Shown here piece after piece: positions 10,255 to 40,055 of a DNA stretch of 41,233 nt. The position numbers and the translations under genes were made by a program. The DNA lies in NCBI GenBank assembly GCA_012521215.1, contig JAAYMU010000157.1, positions 1 through 41,233 on the forward strand, given 5' to 3'. Position 1 is the first letter of the stretch; the number at the start of each line of letters is the position of its first letter. The notes beneath the pieces are model-generated. The model made no database searches. It worked only from the letters and a program-made list of their open reading frames with translations, and was not told the origin of the DNA. The DNA is from Peptococcaceae bacterium (GTDB taxonomy: Bacteria > Bacillota > Desulfitobacteriia > Desulfitobacteriales > Syntrophobotulaceae).

Positions 10255-10569
10255 ATGGCTTGGTTTTCTTTAATTATTGCAGGAGTATTTGAAGCATTTG
10301 GGGTGGCGATGATTAGCCGCTTAAGAAGGAAGCGGAATTGGCAAACAGTAGTTTTATTAATATTTGGATTTGGTATAAGTCTCGCACTTTTAGGATATTC
10401 TTTGAGATTTGTGGCCATGGGGACAGGGTATGCAATTTGGACAGGAATTGGTGTAGTAGGCGGCACCTTAGTTGGAATGGTGTTTTATGGCGAATCGAGG
10501 GACTGGAGGAGACTGGCGTTTATAGCCCTGATTTTATTTTCAACAATTGGCTTAAAGCTTGTATCGTAA
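10255..10569 (+). CDS. SMR-family exporter subunit, YkkD-like partner
   Basis: A 104-residue four-helix SMR protein with the helix-1 Glu ([12 protein letters not shown]) and the [15 protein letters not shown] signature. Loop 1 carries a dense positive patch (SRLRRKRNW) absent from the partner subunit. By the positive-inside rule this would fix opposite orientations of the two subunits, as known for heterodimeric SMR pumps. The start follows GAAAGGAGC with close spacing. It likely works only as a heterodimer with the preceding gene product in the cytoplasmic membrane. Confidence 0.92.
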
Positions 10570-10663
10570 AATAATTTTGTTAAATAATAGCTTGCTTTGC
10601 ATACTAAATCCATATTTTCAAATACTAGGAATAAATATCGATGTGTCGAAAGGATGTATTGTT

Positions 10664-12814
10664 TTGAGCGAAAATAATAAGTATGCCAATAGACTGATTA
10701 ATGAAAAATCACCTTATCTTTTGCAGCATGCTTACAATCCAGTCAATTGGTTCCCTTGGGGCGATGAAGCACTAAAAAAAGCAAAAGACGAAGATAAGCC
10801 TATCTTCTTATCTATTGGATATTCAACTTGTCATTGGTGTCATGTCATGGAGCGGGAGTCTTTCGAGGATCAAGAAGTAGCTGAAGTATTGAATAATAGT
10901 TTTATCTCAATTAAAGTGGACAGGGAAGAAAGGCCCGATCTTGACCATATGTATATGACTTATTGTCAGGCCATGACTGGTTCGGGAGGATGGCCGCTCA
11001 CTGTAATTCTCACTCCGGATAAAAAGCCTTTTTTTGCCGGTACATATTTTCCGAAAGAGAGTAATTACGGTCGCCCGGGGTTAATTGATCTTTTGAATTC
11101 AGTGGCTATGCTTTGGCAGGAAGAAAAAGACAAGGTTAAAGAAAATGCCGATGATCTTTACCAGGCCGTGGCTGAACGCTATGTTTTAAATAAAGATAAT
11201 GTAACAGACGTAAACAATATTGCCCGCTGGGGTAAAGATGTTATCAGTAAAGGCTACGCTATCTTGGAGCAAAATTTTGACTCCCAATACGGTGGCTTTG
11301 GTAGGGAACCTAAATTCCCGACACCTCATAACCTGGGATTTTTGCTGCGTTATGCCCTCTTAGAACCTCAAAGCCGGGCCATGGAAATGGCTAAAAAGAC
11401 CTTGGACAGCATGGCCGATGGAGGAATTTGGGATCATATCGGCTATGGCTTTGCCCGTTACAGTACGGATCGCTACTGGCTGATTCCCCACTTTGAGAAA
11501 ATGCTTTATGATAATGCCGGGCTGGCCTTTGTTTATTTGGAAGCTTTTCAGCTTATGAAAGACGAAAGATATGCGCAGGTGGCTCGGGATATATTACATT
11601 ATGTTTTAAGAGATATGACTTCCCCTGAAGGAGGTTTTTACAGTGCGGAAGATGCTGATTCAGAGGGAATAGAGGGGAAGTTTTATGTCTGGAGCAAAGC
11701 CGAGATCGTAAAAATTCTCCAAAAAGGTTTGCCGGATGCGGTTTCGGTTTTAAGTAAGCTTGCCGGACCGGAAAAATTAGCGGATCTTTATTGTGAGGCT
11801 TATGGTATTAGCGCTAAAGGAAATTTTAAAGGCAAAAATATTCCTAGCAGAATTTTCAGCAATTGGGAACAAATCGCCGCCCGTTATAAGCTGACAATCG
11901 AGGAATTAGAACAACTGCTCAGGGCTTGTAATCGAGTTCTTTATGAAGAACGGGAAAAGCGAGTTAAGCCGGCTAAAGACGACAAAATCCTTACGGCCTG
12001 GAATGGTCTGATAATAGCGGCCCTGGCGAAAGTAGCCCAGGTCTTTATTAACCGAAATATAGTTCAAGAAGAAAGACAGGAATTTCTACAGGCTGCGGAA
12101 AAAGCCGTGGATTTTATCCGCTTTGCCTTATTCGATTCCTCAGGTAGGCTTCTGGCCCGTTACCGGGAAGGGGAAGCCGGCTACTTGGGATATTTGGACG
12201 ATTATGCCTTTTTTATCTATGGTTTGCTGGAACTTTATACGGCCTGTGGCCAACCGAAGTACTTGGAACTGGCCCTTAATCTTCAGCAGGAGCAAGAGAG
12301 ACTGTTTAGAGATAAGGAAGGAGGAGGTTATTTCTTTACCGGTAATGATGCCGAAGAATTACTGTTTAGGCCCAAGGAAGTATATGACGGGGCCATGCCC
12401 TCCGGTAATTCTATTAGCCTTTATAACCTGGCGAGACTATGGCGACTGACGGGTGAGCAAAAATGGCAAGAACTGGCCGAAAAGCAAGGAAATTTTCTTC
12501 GCGATAGCCTGGAAGATTACCCCGCCGGATATACTGCTGCGCTTCAGGGTATTCAGTTTTACCTCGGCACAATAGATGAATTGGTCTTAACCGGGCCCTT
12601 AACAACTCAAACGACTGCCATGCAAGCGGTGATTTTTGAAGACTTCCGACCTTTTTCCGTTATTTCTTATAATGAAGGTACTATAGCCCAATTTGTCCCT
12701 AAACTTGCTTCTTATCCTGTTAAGGAAAATGTAGCCGTTTATCTTTGCCGGGATTTTGCTTGTCAAGAACCGGTAGACAGTCCTCAGAAATTAAAAGATA
12801 TTCTCAACCAATAA
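10664..12814 (+). CDS. YyaL-like thioredoxin-domain protein (DUF255 plus six-hairpin glycosidase-like fold)
   Basis: About 716 residues. The N-terminal domain (about 1-170) is thioredoxin-like with CHWCH (Cys56, Cys59), followed by the family hallmark [13 protein letters not shown]...FFAGTYFP. The remainder (about 200-700) is an alpha/alpha-barrel-like region with [37 protein letters not shown] and [12 protein letters not shown]. The family (YyaL; human SPATA20) is widespread but lacks a firmly assigned reaction. The start is set at the TTG at 10664 with AAAGGA nine bases upstream; the frame is open to 10559 but the added residues are hydrophobic and unrelated to the family. It runs convergent with the next gene, with stops ten bases apart. 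Confidence 0.93.
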
Positions 12815-30903: not shown

Positions 30904-31995
30904 TTGAATATCGGCGCCAGGACTATTAAAACTTCCATTGCCGTCGCTTTAAGTGTATATATCAGTGTGCTGTTTAATGTGGGACCGGCTATTTTTGCTG
31001 CTGCTTCTGCCGTAGTATGTATGCAGCAGTCTATTGGCAAAGGGTTTAGAAACGGTCTCGAACAAATAATTGTCAATTTGTCAGCTGTTGTTGTCGCGGT
31101 AATCCTTGGCCTGACTATACCGATAGATTATTTAAGTATGGCTTTGGCTACCGTGATTATGATTCTGTTGTGCACTAAAGTATTTAAGACCCCTAATCAG
31201 ATTGTTTTAGGCATCATGTCTGCAATATTCATTCTTTCCGCTCCCCATGAAGAATTCTCGCAACATGTTTTTACCAGGGTATTGGCTATTTTAATAGGTA
31301 TGGCTATTGCCAATATCATCAATTTTATTATATCTCCTCCGCATTATCGTGAAGCTCTGATCGCTAAATTTTTGGAACTCAATACCTTTGTAGTACAATG
31401 CTTTGTTGATTCTGTTAATAAATATTTATACCTGACTCCGGCAACGGAGGAAGAAATGAAAAGAAACCAAAACCACTATGCTACTTTGCTGGAAGAAACA
31501 GAAAAACTGTTTAATTTGTTACGCTATGAGTGGAATGTAGGTCTTTTTCCCAGCAAAAAGAAACATGCTAAGCATAAATCAGAACAACAGCTTTTCAGGG
31601 AATACCTGAATTATAACCGGGAACTTTGGCAGAGATCGCAGGATTTACTGTTTCTGGCTGAGGAGAGAAGGGTGCGTCGGGAACGGGCCAATGCCTCTTC
31701 CACTAGCAGTGAATTTCATAATATTTTTGAAATGCTGGTAAATGTGATTTTTAATGCTACCACCTATAATTCTGAACTGCAGAAGAAAATCAAAGGTGAG
31801 GAAGCGGTAATCTACCCTGCACCGCGTGTTTGGAGTAAGTTGAACGCCCTGCTTACGGAATGGTTGGAAAACACACCGAATTCCAACTTTTTTATGCATG
31901 CTTGGCTGGAAGTGTCTGTTGTAACTTATAACGTTCGCTGGTTTGCCAAAGAATCTACCAGGTTACTTAATTGGGGAAATGATGGCCAGAGCTGA
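30904..31995 (+). CDS. Aromatic-acid-exporter / FUSC-like membrane protein
   Basis: A 363-residue protein. The N-terminal half (about 1-150) holds four to six membrane helices beginning GARTIKTSIAVALSVYISVLFNVGPAIFAAASAVVCMQQSIGKGFRNG, the typical ArAE/YgaE-like start, in which the IGKGFRNGLEQI loop is conserved. The C-terminal half (about 155-363) is cytoplasmic, helical and charged. The family is thought to export aromatic acids or amphiphiles, but substrates are mostly untested. The start is TTG after AAAAGGTGG. It is divergent from tlp and precedes the PPDK-like gene in the same direction after 134 bases with a new promoter. Confidence 0.88.
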   Translation: MNIGARTIKTSIAVALSVYISVLFNVGPAIFAAASAVVCMQQSIGKGFRNGLEQIIVNLSAVVVAVILGLTIPIDYLSMALATVIMILLCTKVFKTPNQIVLGIMSAIFILSAPHEEFSQHVFTRVLAILIGMAIANIINFIISPPHYREALIAKFLELNTFVVQCFVDSVNKYLYLTPATEEEMKRNQNHYATLLEETEKLFNLLRYEWNVGLFPSKKKHAKHKSEQQLFREYLNYNRELWQRSQDLLFLAEERRVRRERANASSTSSEFHNIFEMLVNVIFNATTYNSELQKKIKGEEAVIYPAPRVWSKLNALLTEWLENTPNSNFFMHAWLEVSVVTYNVRWFAKESTRLLNWGNDGQS

Positions 31996-32056: not shown

Positions 32057-32065
32057 TGGTATAAT
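32057..32065 (+). promoter_or_regulatory. Extended -10 promoter of the PPDK-like/GAPDH-like unit
   Basis: TGGTATAAT (32057-32065) is an extended -10 element, 65 bases before the start codon. The -35 region is not recognisable. It would drive both genes of the pair. Confidence 0.6.
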
Positions 32066-32129: not shown

Positions 32130-35100
32130 ATGGAAAGGAATTTTAGATCTAAAGCCCTAGAGGCTAATTTAGTTGAAACCAGACACGAAGAAATTCAAAT
32201 TCCGGCTAAACACCAGTGGTTTATTGACCTTTCGGCAGAATGTTGGGGAATGAATAAGAGGACCGTTGAATTTATTAAGGAATATAACCATAAGTATATA
32301 AACTATGAGTATGTTTTAGAAGAACTTCACAATATATGCCTTACGGATTTGTGGTTTTATCTATCCATTCCAGAGTCCGAAGAGGCCTTATTTTTTTTAA
32401 CGGGGATTTTTGAAGAGCTTTCTCAGGCTAAGCTCAGTCTGAGAGAGACAGAACGGCTAATGACCACCTTATTTAAGTTTATTGACAAATTGATTAAAGT
32501 CGGACAACCTACTTCTAAGGTAATTGGGAGAATTGTAAACCTAATTGCTAAAGGTATGCAGGAACAGGAGGAAATATATGTTCGTAACGGGGGATATTTT
32601 AAAACATATTTAGGCCGGGTGGCCGCCATTCCGGAGTTCAGGGACGAAATAATAAATTTAACGAGAACTATTCTGCTTAAAGGAGTAGAGTATTGGGAAA
32701 ATACTACCAGGGCGGAAGAGTGGTTTGCCACTAAAAAAGATTTATTTCATAAAGATTATGAACCAAAACTGCGCTTAATTGGCAGAGACTTTTTCAAAGG
32801 CTTAAGAGAGCAAATCAAAAGTACTGAAACTTGGGAGGATATGGTTTCCAATTTCTTTTTTAATGATATAGCCAATCATTTTCGTCAATTTAGCGAAGAA
32901 TTCGAATTACCCTTGGAAAAAATTCATTACCTTTTTTATGCTATGCATTTACCGGGAATGAAGCAGATAGAAAGTCATTTGCTTTATGATATTAACCGTC
33001 TTTTGAAAGATGCTTTAACCTCTTTAACTCCTGAAGAAATCTATTGGTTTATAGATGAGATGTCGAGTCTTTTTAAGGAATTTAAGGACGAGCATGCCGG
33101 TACAATTCTGGAGTGCGTGTCTACTTTAGGTAAAGAGATAGCCCGTATCAATAATCCGGAGATAATTTCTTATTTTTGCAAAAGTTTAATTAATATTGGT
33201 TTTATTTATCCGGGAAAGCAGCAAATAACAAGTGATTGGCAGGTCAAAGTTAATCCTAATCATATTGTAAATATTAGGGTCTGGCTGGAACTAATTAAGA
33301 GCTCGCCCCAAAACTTCCGCGAACTGCTGGCTGCTCTAAATGTCAATCTCAAACTGGGAGGGATCTTTATTGCTGATACGGATCTTTTCCAAAGGGATAT
33401 AACCAAACTATTGAATTCGGATATCAGTGCGGTTTATAAACAAATTAAAGAGCTGGCTCGTTTGTTTCCGGTCTATTTTCGGGAAATCGGTGCTGAAGGT
33501 AAGCTTCGCGATGTTACTACCGCTATTGATGAGTTGGGGCATCGGAAAGACCGTCTTATACATTTTGTGAGGAAACAAATCCATTCCGAAAGTAACAATA
33601 CCCATATTTCCTTGATTAGAAGTGTGGCGGTTTTCTGGTTCAACGGAGATATTGAGCCTTTGCAAAGCATTCTACCTCCAGATGTATTGGAGGCCATTGA
33701 CCTTACCGGTCCCTATTTTGTTGAAGTTCACCGGCTAATGGTAGCTGCCTGTCAGCACTTTGGGGTAGATCCTCTGGGGCTCCTGGCTTTGCCGGAGCAA
33801 GAGGTAATTAACTTCATAGAGGACTATCCTTTAAATAACAAGAGAGAAAAGAAACGTTTCATTTATTTAATTCAATTGAATAGTCTTCTTTTGGAAAAGT
33901 ATTCTCTGGAAACTCCTGATTTGGCAGGGGTTCTGTCTAAAAGCGGGTTTAGCAGCCCTGAGCAAATAGCAACTCTTCAAAAACAACTGACTGAAGAGGA
34001 TTATTATGGGTCCTTAAAGACGGTCTATGCTATAATGGCCAAGCTTAAGGATATAATTTTAGACCCAAAAGAAAGTGTTGCTCAGGAAGATATATATTAC
34101 AAGAGACATATTGCCATCGGCATTCCTTCCATGTATGGCCAGTATAGAGAGCCAAAGTTTGAAGCCTTGGGACTAATGTATAGGTTGGAAAAAGTGGCTT
34201 CCAGAATAATGGAAAATATTTTGGCCGATTTTAAACTGGATTATATTACTGCCAAAACCTTAAAAAAAATTTATGAGGTATTAATTTTATTTAAGACCGG
34301 TTTGGCCTTGGACGGTATGGAAAACCAAAACTTTAATTCCAATTTGGAAATGTTTCGTTTTTGTTTAACTTCCCCCAGTTTTACCCTAGGCCAGTTTATT
34401 AATATTTTTGAGTTTATGGCCTTGGATATTAAAGAAATAATTAACGAGTATTTTATTCGATTTTATGATGATGCTCTAAATGTGGTTGTTCCCCAGCTTT
34501 TTGACAATTCTAAGGAGACTTTGTACAAAAAGTCCGAAACCTTTTATCGGGAAGTTTTATCTTCGGCTTTTTTGATCCAACTTTTGGATAATTTTATTGC
34601 TTATGCTATTAACAAATTAAGGAAGATTATGAATGACTACTCCGAGAAACAAATTAACAATATGATGACTTATGATCCTGATCTAACAGTCAGCACTTTT
34701 GAAACTTCCACCGAGGAGTTGGATAACAGGGCGTTTCTTGGAGCTAAGGCTTATTATTTAAAGAAACTGATTTCCTACAATTTCCCTGTACCGCCCGGAT
34801 TTATTTTAACCACAGAAGTTTTTCGTCATAAGGATACAGTTATGGAACATATGAATATGAATTTAGAATTCGAAGAGCTTCTGGCTAAACATGTGGCTGA
34901 AATTGAACGGGTGTCCGGACTCGAATTCGGTAATCCTGAGCGGCCGCTTTTACTTTCGGTGCGTTCCGGAACAGCTATTTCCTTGCCGGGAGCCATGAGT
35001 ACTTTTTTAAATGTCGGTCTTACAGACGAGATTGTAGAAATTTTGGCCCAAAAGCAGGAAAATGCCTGGATGACTTGGGACTCCTATCGCCGCCTTATCC

Positions 35101-36194
35101 AATGTTGGGGCATGTCCAAGGGCATACGGCGGACAATTTTTAATAACCTCATGGACGAGGCTAAACAAAAATATGGCATTGCCAAAAAGGCAGATTTCAC
35201 TGCACGCCAGATGAAGGAACTCGTTGCTGAGTATAAGGAAGTCTTGGCCGGCTATAAAGTGTATTTGGATCAGGAACCTTTCGGCCAACTAAAACAAGCT
35301 ATCTTTATGGTCTTGGATTCTTGGAATGCGGAAAGAGCCAAGGCTTATCGCAATCACTTGCAGATAGCGGAGGAGTGGGGAACCGCTGTCATAATTCAAA
35401 AGATGGTCATGGGTAATAGATCACATAAATCGGGCTCGGGGGTAGTTTTTACCCACAATCCTAAATTAAGCAAGCCTGGTATTAATCTTTATGGGGATTT
35501 TACCTTGTGTAGCCAAGGTGAAGATATTGTGGCCGGCCTGGTGCATACTTTACCTATTTCCGAAAATCAGCGCCTGGAGGACTATCCCGACTCTTCTATC
35601 TCCTTGCAAACTGCTTTCCCTAAAATATATAATCGCCTTAAGGAACTGGCTTCCAAATTAATCTATGAACTTGGTTTTAATAACCAAGAAATTGAATTTA
35701 CTTTTGAGTCCGAGAACCCGGAGGACCTCTACATTCTTCAAACCAGAGAACAAATAATCAGCCCTAAAGAAAAAATGCAGTTCTTTAGCACGCCTCTGGA
35801 GAAAATGAAACTTCTGGGACGAGGGATTGGTACGGGAGATAAATGTTTAAGCGGCATGGTCTGTTTCGATATGCAGGATCTGCTACGCTTTAGATTGGAG
35901 TATCCCGACGAAAAGTACATCTTAATCAGGCCGGATACAGTTCCGGACGATATTGACAAGATCTTTCTCTGTGACGGGCTAATTACGAGCCGTGGAGGGG
36001 TTACTTCTCATTCCTCGGTGACTGCAACTAAATTGGGCAAAACCTGTATCCTAAACTGTAAAGAATTAGTGGTGCATGATGACTTGAAACAATGTACTAT
36101 TAATGGTGTAGTATTGAAAGCAGGTGATTTTATTTCTATTGACGGCAAGGCAGGAAATATTTTTTTAGGAAAGTATCCTATTCATAGTGCTTAG
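32130..36194 (+). CDS. Large protein with PPDK/PEP-synthase-type ATP-grasp and phosphohistidine domains
   Basis: A 1354-residue soluble protein. About 860 N-terminal residues are helical and charged and match nothing I recognise. From about 863 a PEP/pyruvate-dikinase ATP-grasp domain begins (NRAFLGAKAYYLKKLISYNFPVPPGFILTT, later LLSVRSGTAISLPGAMSTFLNVGL, SGVVFTHNP, EIEFTFE...YILQTRE). The swivelling phosphohistidine domain near 1280-1354 has the TSRGGVTSHSS motif with His1294 as the phosphate carrier. The protein ends about 60 residues later, so the PEP/pyruvate-binding TIM barrel of true PPDK/PpsA is absent. It could phosphorylate its own His with ATP and pass the phosphate to an unknown acceptor. 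It is followed after 42 bases by a GAPDH-like gene. Clean ribosome site TTGAGGTG. Confidence 0.85.
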   Translation: MERNFRSKALEANLVETRHEEIQIPAKHQWFIDLSAECWGMNKRTVEFIKEYNHKYINYEYVLEELHNICLTDLWFYLSIPESEEALFFLTGIFEELSQAKLSLRETERLMTTLFKFIDKLIKVGQPTSKVIGRIVNLIAKGMQEQEEIYVRNGGYFKTYLGRVAAIPEFRDEIINLTRTILLKGVEYWENTTRAEEWFATKKDLFHKDYEPKLRLIGRDFFKGLREQIKSTETWEDMVSNFFFNDIANHFRQFSEEFELPLEKIHYLFYAMHLPGMKQIESHLLYDINRLLKDALTSLTPEEIYWFIDEMSSLFKEFKDEHAGTILECVSTLGKEIARINNPEIISYFCKSLINIGFIYPGKQQITSDWQVKVNPNHIVNIRVWLELIKSSPQNFRELLAALNVNLKLGGIFIADTDLFQRDITKLLNSDISAVYKQIKELARLFPVYFREIGAEGKLRDVTTAIDELGHRKDRLIHFVRKQIHSESNNTHISLIRSVAVFWFNGDIEPLQSILPPDVLEAIDLTGPYFVEVHRLMVAACQHFGVDPLGLLALPEQEVINFIEDYPLNNKREKKRFIYLIQLNSLLLEKYSLETPDLAGVLSKSGFSSPEQIATLQKQLTEEDYYGSLKTVYAIMAKLKDIILDPKESVAQEDIYYKRHIAIGIPSMYGQYREPKFEALGLMYRLEKVASRIMENILADFKLDYITAKTLKKIYEVLILFKTGLALDGMENQNFNSNLEMFRFCLTSPSFTLGQFINIFEFMALDIKEIINEYFIRFYDDALNVVVPQLFDNSKETLYKKSETFYREVLSSAFLIQLLDNFIAYAINKLRKIMNDYSEKQINNMMTYDPDLTVSTFETSTEELDNRAFLGAKAYYLKKLISYNFPVPPGFILTTEVFRHKDTVMEHMNMNLEFEELLAKHVAEIERVSGLEFGNPERPLLLSVRSGTAISLPGAMSTFLNVGLTDEIVEILAQKQENAWMTWDSYRRLIQCWGMSKGIRRTIFNNLMDEAKQKYGIAKKADFTARQMKELVAEYKEVLAGYKVYLDQEPFGQLKQAIFMVLDSWNAERAKAYRNHLQIAEEWGTAVIIQKMVMGNRSHKSGSGVVFTHNPKLSKPGINLYGDFTLCSQGEDIVAGLVHTLPISENQRLEDYPDSSISLQTAFPKIYNRLKELASKLIYELGFNNQEIEFTFESENPEDLYILQTREQIISPKEKMQFFSTPLEKMKLLGRGIGTGDKCLSGMVCFDMQDLLRFRLEYPDEKYILIRPDTVPDDIDKIFLCDGLITSRGGVTSHSSVTATKLGKTCILNCKELVVHDDLKQCTINGVVLKAGDFISIDGKAGNIFLGKYPIHSA

Positions 36195-36236
36195 TATGAA
36201 GTAAAATTTGAGTTCAATTAATGGGGGAGATAATTC

Positions 36237-37493
36237 ATGGATCTGCAATTTAGAAACAAGAAAATTCTGGGCATTAATGGCATAGGCCGAATTGGTAAAC
36301 TGACTTTCTGGAATCAACTAAGGTTGGGGCATTTTAGCGGATTTGTTCTCAATGCCGGTAGGAAAGTTGGCAAAAGCCTTGAGGATACGATAGATTATTT
36401 AATCAAAGATTCAACTTACGGTTCTTTGCATGTTTTCCTTTATGGTTATTCCGGCAAAACTTGTGAGGTTAAGATTATTGACCGGGAAGAGGGACTATTT
36501 ACTATTAACGGAGTTCAGGTTAAGTTTCTTAATCAGGCCAGAAATCCGCGGGATATTAACTGGGCTAAAGAAGGTGTGCAATTAGTTATTGATTGTACCG
36601 GCAAATATCTTGATCCCACAATTCCTGCCGATCATCCCAAGGGCAGTGTCCGCGGCCATTTGGAAGCCGGGGCGAAAAAGGTTATTGTCAGTGCCCCATT
36701 TAAAATTAAAGATAATTCTAAAAAAATGCCTGAAGATAGCGGTATGTTCGTTTATGGTGTAAACCATATGCGTTTCGACCCGACGGAACATCATATCATC
36801 TCTGCCGCCAGCTGTACCACTACCGGACTGGCTCATATGATTAAACCCCTTCTGGAAACCGAGGAAACGTCGGAAATAATTACAGCTTCGATGTCTACCG
36901 TTCATGCAGCTACTAATAACCAAAATATTCTCGATGCACCTCCTAAAGAGGGACAATCCGACCTAAGAAGAAATAGATCTGTTTTTAATAATATAATTCC
37001 TACAACTACAGGTGCTGCTATTGCTCTAGAGGAAATCTTGCCGGAAATCAAACAAATCGGTTTTATGGCCGATTCAGTACGAGTACCGGTCAGTACCTCT
37101 TCTTTGATCACTTTAAATGTTACTTTTCATTCTAAGCTGAATAAAGAAACCGGAATGCCGGTAATTAATCGCAAATTTTTGAACGATATTTATAAAAAAG
37201 CAGCCCAAGGCGCGCAAAAGGATTTATTGATCTTCAGTGAAAAACAAAATGTTTCTTCCGATATTATTGGTTTCCAAGGAGCTATTGTTATTGAGGGAGT
37301 AGAAACTCATACCCGAACGGGATTTATTCCGCTTTCGGCTAAAACTTTGAGAGATTATGGTCTAGAGAATATTTCAGACCTGAATATACCTGTAACTCAT
37401 GCTAAAATTTGTGGATGGTATGATAATGAGTTTGGCAGCTACGTTAACCTATTGGGAAAATTAACTGTTTATATTGATAAAAATATTGCCTAG
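36237..37493 (+). CDS. Divergent glyceraldehyde-3-phosphate-dehydrogenase-like protein
   Basis: A 418-residue GAPDH homologue, against about 335 for the glycolytic enzyme. The Rossmann start is NGIGRIGKL. The nucleophile region reads SAASCTTTGLAH with Cys193 (the canonical Asn after CTT is Thr), the base His223 is in MSTVHAATNNQNILDAP, then NIIPTTTGAAIALEEILPE and SVRVPVS, and WYDNEFGSYVN ends the motif series. The usual Asn-Asp after strand two, which favours NAD, reads Asn-Ala (VLNAGRKVGKS). Insertions account for the extra length, including one of about 30 residues before the Cys. It probably oxidises or reduces an aldehyde through a thioester, but the substrate and cofactor may differ from glycolysis. 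It is almost certainly cotranscribed with the PPDK-like gene. Confidence 0.88.
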   Translation: MDLQFRNKKILGINGIGRIGKLTFWNQLRLGHFSGFVLNAGRKVGKSLEDTIDYLIKDSTYGSLHVFLYGYSGKTCEVKIIDREEGLFTINGVQVKFLNQARNPRDINWAKEGVQLVIDCTGKYLDPTIPADHPKGSVRGHLEAGAKKVIVSAPFKIKDNSKKMPEDSGMFVYGVNHMRFDPTEHHIISAASCTTTGLAHMIKPLLETEETSEIITASMSTVHAATNNQNILDAPPKEGQSDLRRNRSVFNNIIPTTTGAAIALEEILPEIKQIGFMADSVRVPVSTSSLITLNVTFHSKLNKETGMPVINRKFLNDIYKKAAQGAQKDLLIFSEKQNVSSDIIGFQGAIVIEGVETHTRTGFIPLSAKTLRDYGLENISDLNIPVTHAKICGWYDNEFGSYVNLLGKLTVYIDKNIA

Positions 37494-37505
37494 GGGCAAT
37501 CTTTC

Positions 37506-39811: not shown

Positions 39812-39864
39812 AGATAATATCTGGATACTGTTCAGGGTTGCGATAAATAAAAGTTAATAACCAA

Positions 39865-39925
39865 AATGCCGCTGTAGACAGCAGGTGCTCTTAAGCTTAA
39901 TTTCCTGCCGAGGTGGAGGATAAGT
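39865..39925 (+). ncRNA. Ribosomal protein L10 leader
   Basis: The block GCCGCTGTAGACAGCAGGTG...GCTTAAT...CCTGCCGAGG follows the L10-leader consensus of Firmicutes, with GCAGG (39881-39885) pairing CCTGC (39904-39908). L10(L7/L12)4 is expected to bind here and control rplJ-rplL. Confidence 0.85.
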
Positions 39926-39960
39926 AAATATAAAAGTCGATAGAATGACTAGTATTTTAT

Positions 39961-39990
39961 AACCTCCGTGTCTTAGCGGAGGTTATTTAC
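39961..39990 (+). terminator. Attenuator hairpin before rplJ
   Basis: AACCTCCG (39961-39968) and CGGAGGTT (39977-39984) form a perfect 8-bp stem followed by the AT-rich ATTTACTTAT. TAAGTAAATA (39921-39930) can pair with TATTTACTTA (39984-39993), an outer or competing stem, so the leader can refold between states. Confidence 0.65.
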
Positions 39991-40055
39991 TTATACCCCA
40001 GTCTTACTTACTTTACTGGATAATTAACGTCGCATCGTCGAAAGGAGGTGCACCA

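Follow-up and report, generated by a model that had tools for sequence, protein, structure and literature searches.

A PPDK-like dikinase without the pyruvate barrel and a divergent GAPDH-like protein form a dedicated gene pair placed by gene context at the glyceraldehyde-3-phosphate node of anaerobic bacteria

The contig of a Peptococcaceae bacterium analysed here (GenBank assembly GCA_012521215.1, contig JAAYMU010000157.1, positions 1 to 41,233, hereafter the window) carries two adjacent genes whose place in metabolism is well supported: because of their gene context across genomes, they are assigned to the node formed by glyceraldehyde-3-phosphate (GAP), 1,3-bisphosphoglycerate (1,3BPG) and 3-phosphoglycerate (3PG). 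The first gene (32130-36194, forward strand) encodes a 1354-residue protein related to pyruvate, phosphate dikinase (PPDK) that lacks the phosphoenolpyruvate (PEP)/pyruvate barrel and is given the working name PPDKL. The second gene (36237-37493, same strand, 42 bases further on) encodes a 418-residue, divergent protein resembling phosphorylating glyceraldehyde-3-phosphate dehydrogenase (GAPDH), with the working name GAPL. Both open reading frames (ORFs) start with ATG, and they agree with the Pfam matches and with the original prediction, made from this sequence, of an ATP-grasp and phosphohistidine gene without the barrel next to a GAPDH-like gene. The favoured reading, held tentatively and at somewhat less than an even chance, is that PPDKL is a phosphohistidine dikinase acting on 3PG and 1,3BPG and GAPL an NADP-type GAPDH, both belonging to one central-carbon module.

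The distribution of the two genes strongly supports the earlier claim of a dedicated pair. In GTDB species contigs, at least 390 relatives of PPDKL were found, and the best 80 of these belong, by the names given by the submitters, to Bacillota, Bacteroidota, Desulfobacterota (Geobacteraceae, NaphS2), Calditrichota, Cloacimonadota, Chloroflexota and Sumerlaeota. Full-length relatives come from anaerobes of at least six phyla. GAPL lies directly 3' of PPDKL in 58 of the 72 loci with a continuing contig, in several phyla, and the 14 loci without an adjoining GAPL comprise eight of the Acetobacterium type and six from Bacteroidales. Many of the surveyed genomes are metagenome-assembled genomes (MAGs), and the genomes are related to one another. 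Within a sample of 297 genomes from the phylum to which strain NaphS2 belongs (Desulfobacterota, judging by its name), 84 encode PPDKL, 85 encode GAPL and 83 encode the two together (Fisher p 2e-70, without correction for relatedness); among the 213 genomes negative for PPDKL, GAPL was found in two, one of them a fragment. In the 83 genomes with both genes, GAPL is directly downstream in 53, convergent in 11 and elsewhere in 19 (17 on another contig), so the co-occurrence holds even where linkage is not demonstrated.

These patterns bear on the simplest alternative, that GAPL is an ordinary isozyme of GAPDH and PPDKL a degenerate PPDK or PEP synthase, the two being neighbours by chance or operon inertia. 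An apparently homologous locus is indeed named 'phosphoenolpyruvate synthase' and 'GAPDH' in a genome annotation (PMC8780430). This alternative is nevertheless already disfavoured and highly improbable, as the two genes persist together when unlinked, their adjacency is kept across phyla while the outer neighbours change, the barrel is absent and the N-terminal half of PPDKL is itself conserved across phyla.

The pair is not universal. For the survey of Clostridia that had been suggested with the original prediction, GAPL adjoins PPDKL in all five PPDKL genomes found among 397 other genomes of the Bacillota sample, which bears out the pairing; this is a rare and patchy occurrence. Conservation of the pair throughout Clostridia was rejected on this count, and PPDKL was also found in none of the 295 other genomes of the Bacteroidota sample. 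In the PPDKL tree, the window protein falls inside a Bacillota clade, and Acetobacterium stands beside Alkalibacter, which carries GAPL; Acetobacterium has therefore most likely lost GAPL. Loci with PPDKL in genomes without GAPL were seen in Acetobacterium and relatives (L080-L086, L097, L230-L235), and several Acetobacterium-type loci carry a gene for an XRE/desulfoferrodoxin-like protein 3' of PPDKL.

The placement in metabolism comes from the neighbouring genes. The original prediction described a stand-alone pair, which is true of the window; elsewhere the pair is part of larger operons. Three loci of the Desulfobacterota sample (L219, L220, L225) show the contiguous order gap-PPDKL-GAPL-pgk-tpiA on one strand, with a canonical gap, two others (L228, L229) gap-PPDKL-GAPL and one (L227) PPDKL-GAPL. 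In a further two (L223, L226), gap is immediately 5' of PPDKL and GAPL is elsewhere, where it precedes pgk (genomes G955 and G1005). A position for phosphoglycerate kinase (PGK) is listed for 40 genomes with PPDKL or GAPL, and in at least 13 of them GAPL lies on the strand of pgk and no more than 1.2 kb from it; GAPL situated away from PPDKL often precedes pgk (at least 6 of the 13 GAPL-pgk neighbours listed). Seven Bacteroidales and Chloroflexi loci have a canonical GAPDH gene adjoining or close to PPDKL, and such a gene is also beside PPDKL in further Desulfobacterota. SerA, a 3PG enzyme, is encoded downstream in seven loci, mainly of Syntrophomonadaceae; glgA is upstream in L221 and L226, and a sugar-phosphate isomerase gene or glgA is near the pair in some loci. 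In Syntrophomonadaceae-type loci (L053, L054, L056, L057, L067), the pair is followed by genes for a DUF362-ferredoxin protein and SerA. In Dissulfurimicrobium hydrothermale, PGK (LGS26_08510), GAPDH (08515), 'PEP synthase' (08520) and GAPDH (08525) are encoded in series (PMC8780430), and the order of the locus tags suggests the same operon with generic gene names.

The C-terminal part of PPDKL carries the nucleotide and swivel domains of PPDK. Pfam places PPDK_N at residues 910-1139 (3.4e-26) and the PEP-utilizers mobile domain at 1260-1342 (4.4e-15); the same scan gave no match to PEP-utilizers_C, the PEP/pyruvate barrel, or to the PGK family (PF00162), and the protein stops after the swivel domain. 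Its top match in the PDB is PPDK, residues 863-1349 aligning to PPDK 15-511, which covers only these two domains. The ATP-grasp thus spans residues 863-1215 (34716-35774) and the phosphohistidine swivel domain residues 1225-1349 (35802-36176), with His1294 (CAT codon at 36009-36011) as the predicted phosphorylated histidine by alignment to the TSH motif of PPDK, here within a PPDK-type GGVTSH motif. K873, R945, E1189, Q1204 and R1206 are equivalent to Lys22, Arg92, Glu323, Gln335 and Arg337 of PPDK and are conserved in at least 98% of 101 relatives, in which T1292, S1293 and H1294 are also kept (H1294 likewise in at least 98%). In one locus (L109), the PPDKL frame is broken right at the His1294 region into two overlapping ORFs, probably by a frameshift or an assembly error. 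Since PPDKL scores 364.6 bits against the PPDK model TIGR01828 and 52.9 bits against the PEP synthase model TIGR01418, the nucleotide half is, as judged from sequence, of the PPDK type and not of the PEP synthase type; both scores are below the respective cut-offs of 843 and 739.75. Compared with PPDK itself (PDB 5jvj, 1kbl), all tested catalytic residues of the ATP-grasp and the swivel histidine are shared, whereas the barrel is missing and an unrelated N-terminal half of 860 residues is added.

For this N-terminal half, no Pfam family was found for residues 1-860, and a search up to E 10 yielded nothing convincing. An AlphaFold model made with 63 homologues is almost entirely helical there, with one beta-hairpin at 652-673 and a mean predicted local distance difference test score (pLDDT) of 87.5. 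Foldseek gave no match at E 0.001 or better for residues 1-860 or for 342-854 folded alone; the best values of 3.4e-3 and 3.7e-2, respectively, belong to low-scoring generic helical-repeat or bundle matches, and VIA-align likewise points to generic solenoids or bundles. No known domain was thus recognised by these Pfam and fold searches, and the absence of a fold match does not establish a new fold. Residues 20-341 (32187-33152) are predicted to form an all-helical, alpha-solenoid-like region with weak solenoid-type fold matches, and the first 340 residues are the least conserved large part of the protein, with a mean identity to the window protein of 37%.

The adjoining region is of a different character. 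Residues 342-854 (33153-34691), helical with one beta-hairpin and many invariant charged residues, form a putative acceptor domain; residues 342-860 are regarded as the candidate for this role because the pyruvate barrel is gone and this region is conserved. Mean identity is 53% for residues 342-560 and 51% for 641-860, close to the 55% of the ATP-grasp, with a variable stretch of 31% at 561-640. The N-terminal half holds about 40 invariant polar residues, and those invariant in 101 proteins include D416, T417 and D418, R460, D467, R472 and D474, R481, K482, H485 and E487, K590, E653, K658, R659 and H660, S667, Y669, Y672, E674 and K676, R685 and E687, R807, and D820. Nine of them lie in a near-invariant hairpin at 652-676 (34083-34157), which is modelled with less confidence than any other inner part (pLDDT below 50 at residues 657-668). 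This hairpin is a candidate for a mobile active-site element. Because the charged residues are invariant and the near-invariant hairpin is poorly placed in the model, the pattern seems to fit an enzyme site that includes a mobile element better than a docking surface.

The main rival explanation concerns exactly this point. PPDKL could be a regulatory histidine kinase or dikinase similar to VadK, in which the ATP-grasp charges His1294 according to ATP, AMP, phosphate (Pi) and pyrophosphate (PPi), and the solenoid-containing half docks on GAPL, GAPDH or PGK, switching their activity or assembly, with GAPL as a regulated NADP-type GAPDH. VadK (Rv1127c), a barrel-less PPDK, autophosphorylates His422 and interacts with enzymes of the methylcitrate cycle (PMC13400623). 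As a mycobacterial protein of the NF004531/PRK05878 type, it shares with PPDKL the nucleotide and swivel domains, the lack of a barrel and a metabolic context. It differs in consisting of these two domains only (about 50 kDa), whereas PPDKL has 860 extra conserved residues, comes from anaerobes and has a GAPDH-like enzyme as its partner. The solenoid-like first 340 residues and the strict co-occurrence with GAPL as a dedicated target would fit such a regulator, and with canonical GAPDH and PGK in the same genomes control instead of a new step is conceivable. On the other hand, the invariance of charged residues in 342-860 across phyla is enzyme-like and beyond what is expected of a docking surface, PPDKL persists in Acetobacterium without GAPL, and neither a response regulator nor a phosphatase partner is among the annotated recurrent neighbour families. 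Regulation is a possible, though less likely, explanation.

GAPL matches both Gp_dh_N and Gp_dh_C in Pfam and reaches 307.6 bits against the type I GAPDH model TIGR01534, below the cut-off of 367.2. It is about 30% identical to the canonical GAPDHs encoded near PPDKL. An alignment of 55 GAPL and 8 canonical GAPDH sequences confirmed that the motifs are altered, as noted initially: CTTN is replaced by CTTT, Asp32 and D181 are lost and there are several insertions. Catalytic Cys149 and His176, both phosphate sites (SCTT, H..T, TG, R.P) and WYDNE are intact, the catalytic cysteine being Cys193 in GAPL (SCTTTG, codon at 36813-36815). At residues 39-42 (36351-36362), an N-x-G-R motif replaces the NAD-specifying Asn-Asp, and its N, G and R are invariant among the aligned GAPL sequences. 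An arginine following a lost Asp32 is established as a mark of NADP use in GAPDHs; the invariant arginine therefore suggests that GAPL prefers NADP. GAPL thereby resembles type I GAPDHs, including the NADP-type GapB, in its catalytic residues, phosphate sites, WYDNE motif and both domains, and departs from them in the N-x-G-R motif, the insertions, CTTT and the score below the cut-off.

From the domains, invariant residues, co-occurrence and gene context we infer a reaction together with its acceptor, cofactor and direction. PPDK converts ATP and Pi to AMP, PPi and a phosphorylated swivel histidine, which then swings to the acceptor domain. PPDKL would perform the same half-reaction (ATP + Pi <-> AMP + PPi), in which His1294 becomes phosphorylated; its swivel domain would then deliver the phosphoryl group to an acceptor bound on domain 342-860 instead of to pyruvate. 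This step is most likely 3PG <-> 1,3BPG, since the neighbours are gap, pgk, tpiA and SerA and the partner is GAPDH-like. GAPL, as an NADP(H)-type phosphorylating GAPDH, would then interconvert 1,3BPG and GAP. The exchange of acyl phosphate and phosphohistidine with an ATP-grasp has a precedent in NDP-forming acyl-CoA synthetases. The pair would be a parallel to GAPDH and PGK with other cofactors (NADP, AMP/PPi), more probably gluconeogenic, a direction to which the NADP-like motif of GAPL and the nearby glgA weakly point. The proposed reaction and the operon neighbourhood are shared with PGK (PF00162), to which PPDKL has no sequence relation, and AMP/PPi and a phosphohistidine would take the place of direct ADP/ATP transfer. 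The link to an acyl phosphate of the GAPDH-like enzyme that was originally suggested fits the operons and the conserved GAPDH active site, and the reaction itself is a proposal.

Several points weigh against this dikinase reading. Canonical GAPDH and PGK are also present in nearly all genomes carrying the pair, so that it is not needed as a replacement, and the idea that it replaces a missing GAPDH or PGK was rejected. Genomes without PGK are not enriched among carriers (2 of 84 with PPDKL and 12 of 213 others). The genome of the window, a 2.5 Mb MAG in 234 contigs, also encodes a separate canonical PPDK, GAPDH and PGK. Of 40 genomes from the Acetobacterium family, 16 encode a full PPDKL and none encodes GAPL. 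In addition, alpha-solenoids usually bind proteins, which fits a regulatory role, the Fisher p value is inflated by related genomes, the apparent NADP preference of GAPL is derived from one sequence motif, and the acceptor 3PG/1,3BPG is read from gene context.

In another possible reading, PPDKL is a dikinase for a different small molecule of the same part of metabolism, such as glycerate or dihydroxyacetone, a precursor of glycogen, or an acid or aldehyde that is not 3PG. The substrate of GAPL would then be the corresponding acyl phosphate or aldehyde instead of GAP. Acceptor domains of swivel dikinases are exchangeable, as seen in rifampin phosphotransferase (RPH; PMC4844700) and in HpeHI, which acts on hydroxyphenylethanones (PMC12167813). 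Both combine an ATP-grasp and a swivel histidine with an acceptor other than pyruvate, as proposed for PPDKL, although their acceptor domains are different and the RPH model matches PPDKL only at E 9e-4 and 17.7 bits. The insertions in GAPL, its loss of Asp181 and of the Asn after the catalytic Cys, and the glgA or sugar-phosphate isomerase genes near some loci would be in line with such an acceptor. The full set of GAPDH phosphate sites retained in GAPL and the operon partners gap, pgk and tpiA argue against it, making it unlikely.

The private promoter that had been proposed is weakly supported: a possible extended -10 element, TGGTATAAT (TGnTATAAT, 32057-32065, forward strand), lies in the 134-base gap upstream of PPDKL, no -35 element was found at standard spacing to it, and the promoter consensus scan did no better than chance, with 16 found where 15.3 were expected. 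A weak terminator-like hairpin 3' of GAPL (37485-37500, forward strand) comes from a scan with 6 found and 5.0 expected. Control by a riboswitch or leader was rejected, as Rfam had no match near the pair, either in the window or at five further loci; past the pair, a ribosomal protein L10 leader (RF00557) is located at 39854-40000 in a ribosomal-protein region. Immediately 5' of the pair, 30904-31995 encodes a 363-residue protein without an NCBIfam match that was read as a FUSC-like putative aromatic acid exporter. A homologue is found immediately upstream of the pair in genome G062 and immediately downstream of GAPL in genome G070. Further away, a 751-residue ORF (10559-12814) gives only a weak match to the model of the selenoprotein TsoB, which is rhodanese/DsbD fusion-like.

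No study of the PPDKL-GAPL pair and no assignment of it to a pathway was found in the open-licence literature searched. The PPDK nucleotide half and the GAPDH fold belong to known kinds, while that literature has no description of their combination, of the N-terminal half or of the position in metabolism. To our knowledge, there are few alternatives to the GAPDH/PGK step (GAPN, GAPOR), which is among the most conserved in metabolism. A large enzyme family, found in over a quarter of the Desulfobacterota sampled and scattered over at least five other phyla, is tied to this step by its context, and the pair may be an overlooked version of a textbook step of glycolysis and gluconeogenesis. As the published locus is named only 'PEP synthase' and 'GAPDH', metabolic models may include a pyruvate-PEP step in error and overlook a real function, and the gap-PPDKL-GAPL-pgk-tpiA operons are useful for re-annotating such 'PEP synthase' genes in Desulfobacterota. 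If PPDKL is a regulator, it would represent a new layer of control on GAPDH. If it is a 1,3BPG/3PG dikinase, PPi/AMP-linked energy coupling would be added to central metabolism and, as a speculation, this route could recover AMP and PPi from sulfate activation in sulfate reducers. It is conceivable, though far from assured, that anaerobes of several phyla have, beside ordinary GAPDH and PGK, a further crossing between 3PG, 1,3BPG and GAP, made of a phosphohistidine dikinase that works with ATP + Pi / AMP + PPi through a new acceptor domain and is joined by an NADP-type GAPDH of its own.

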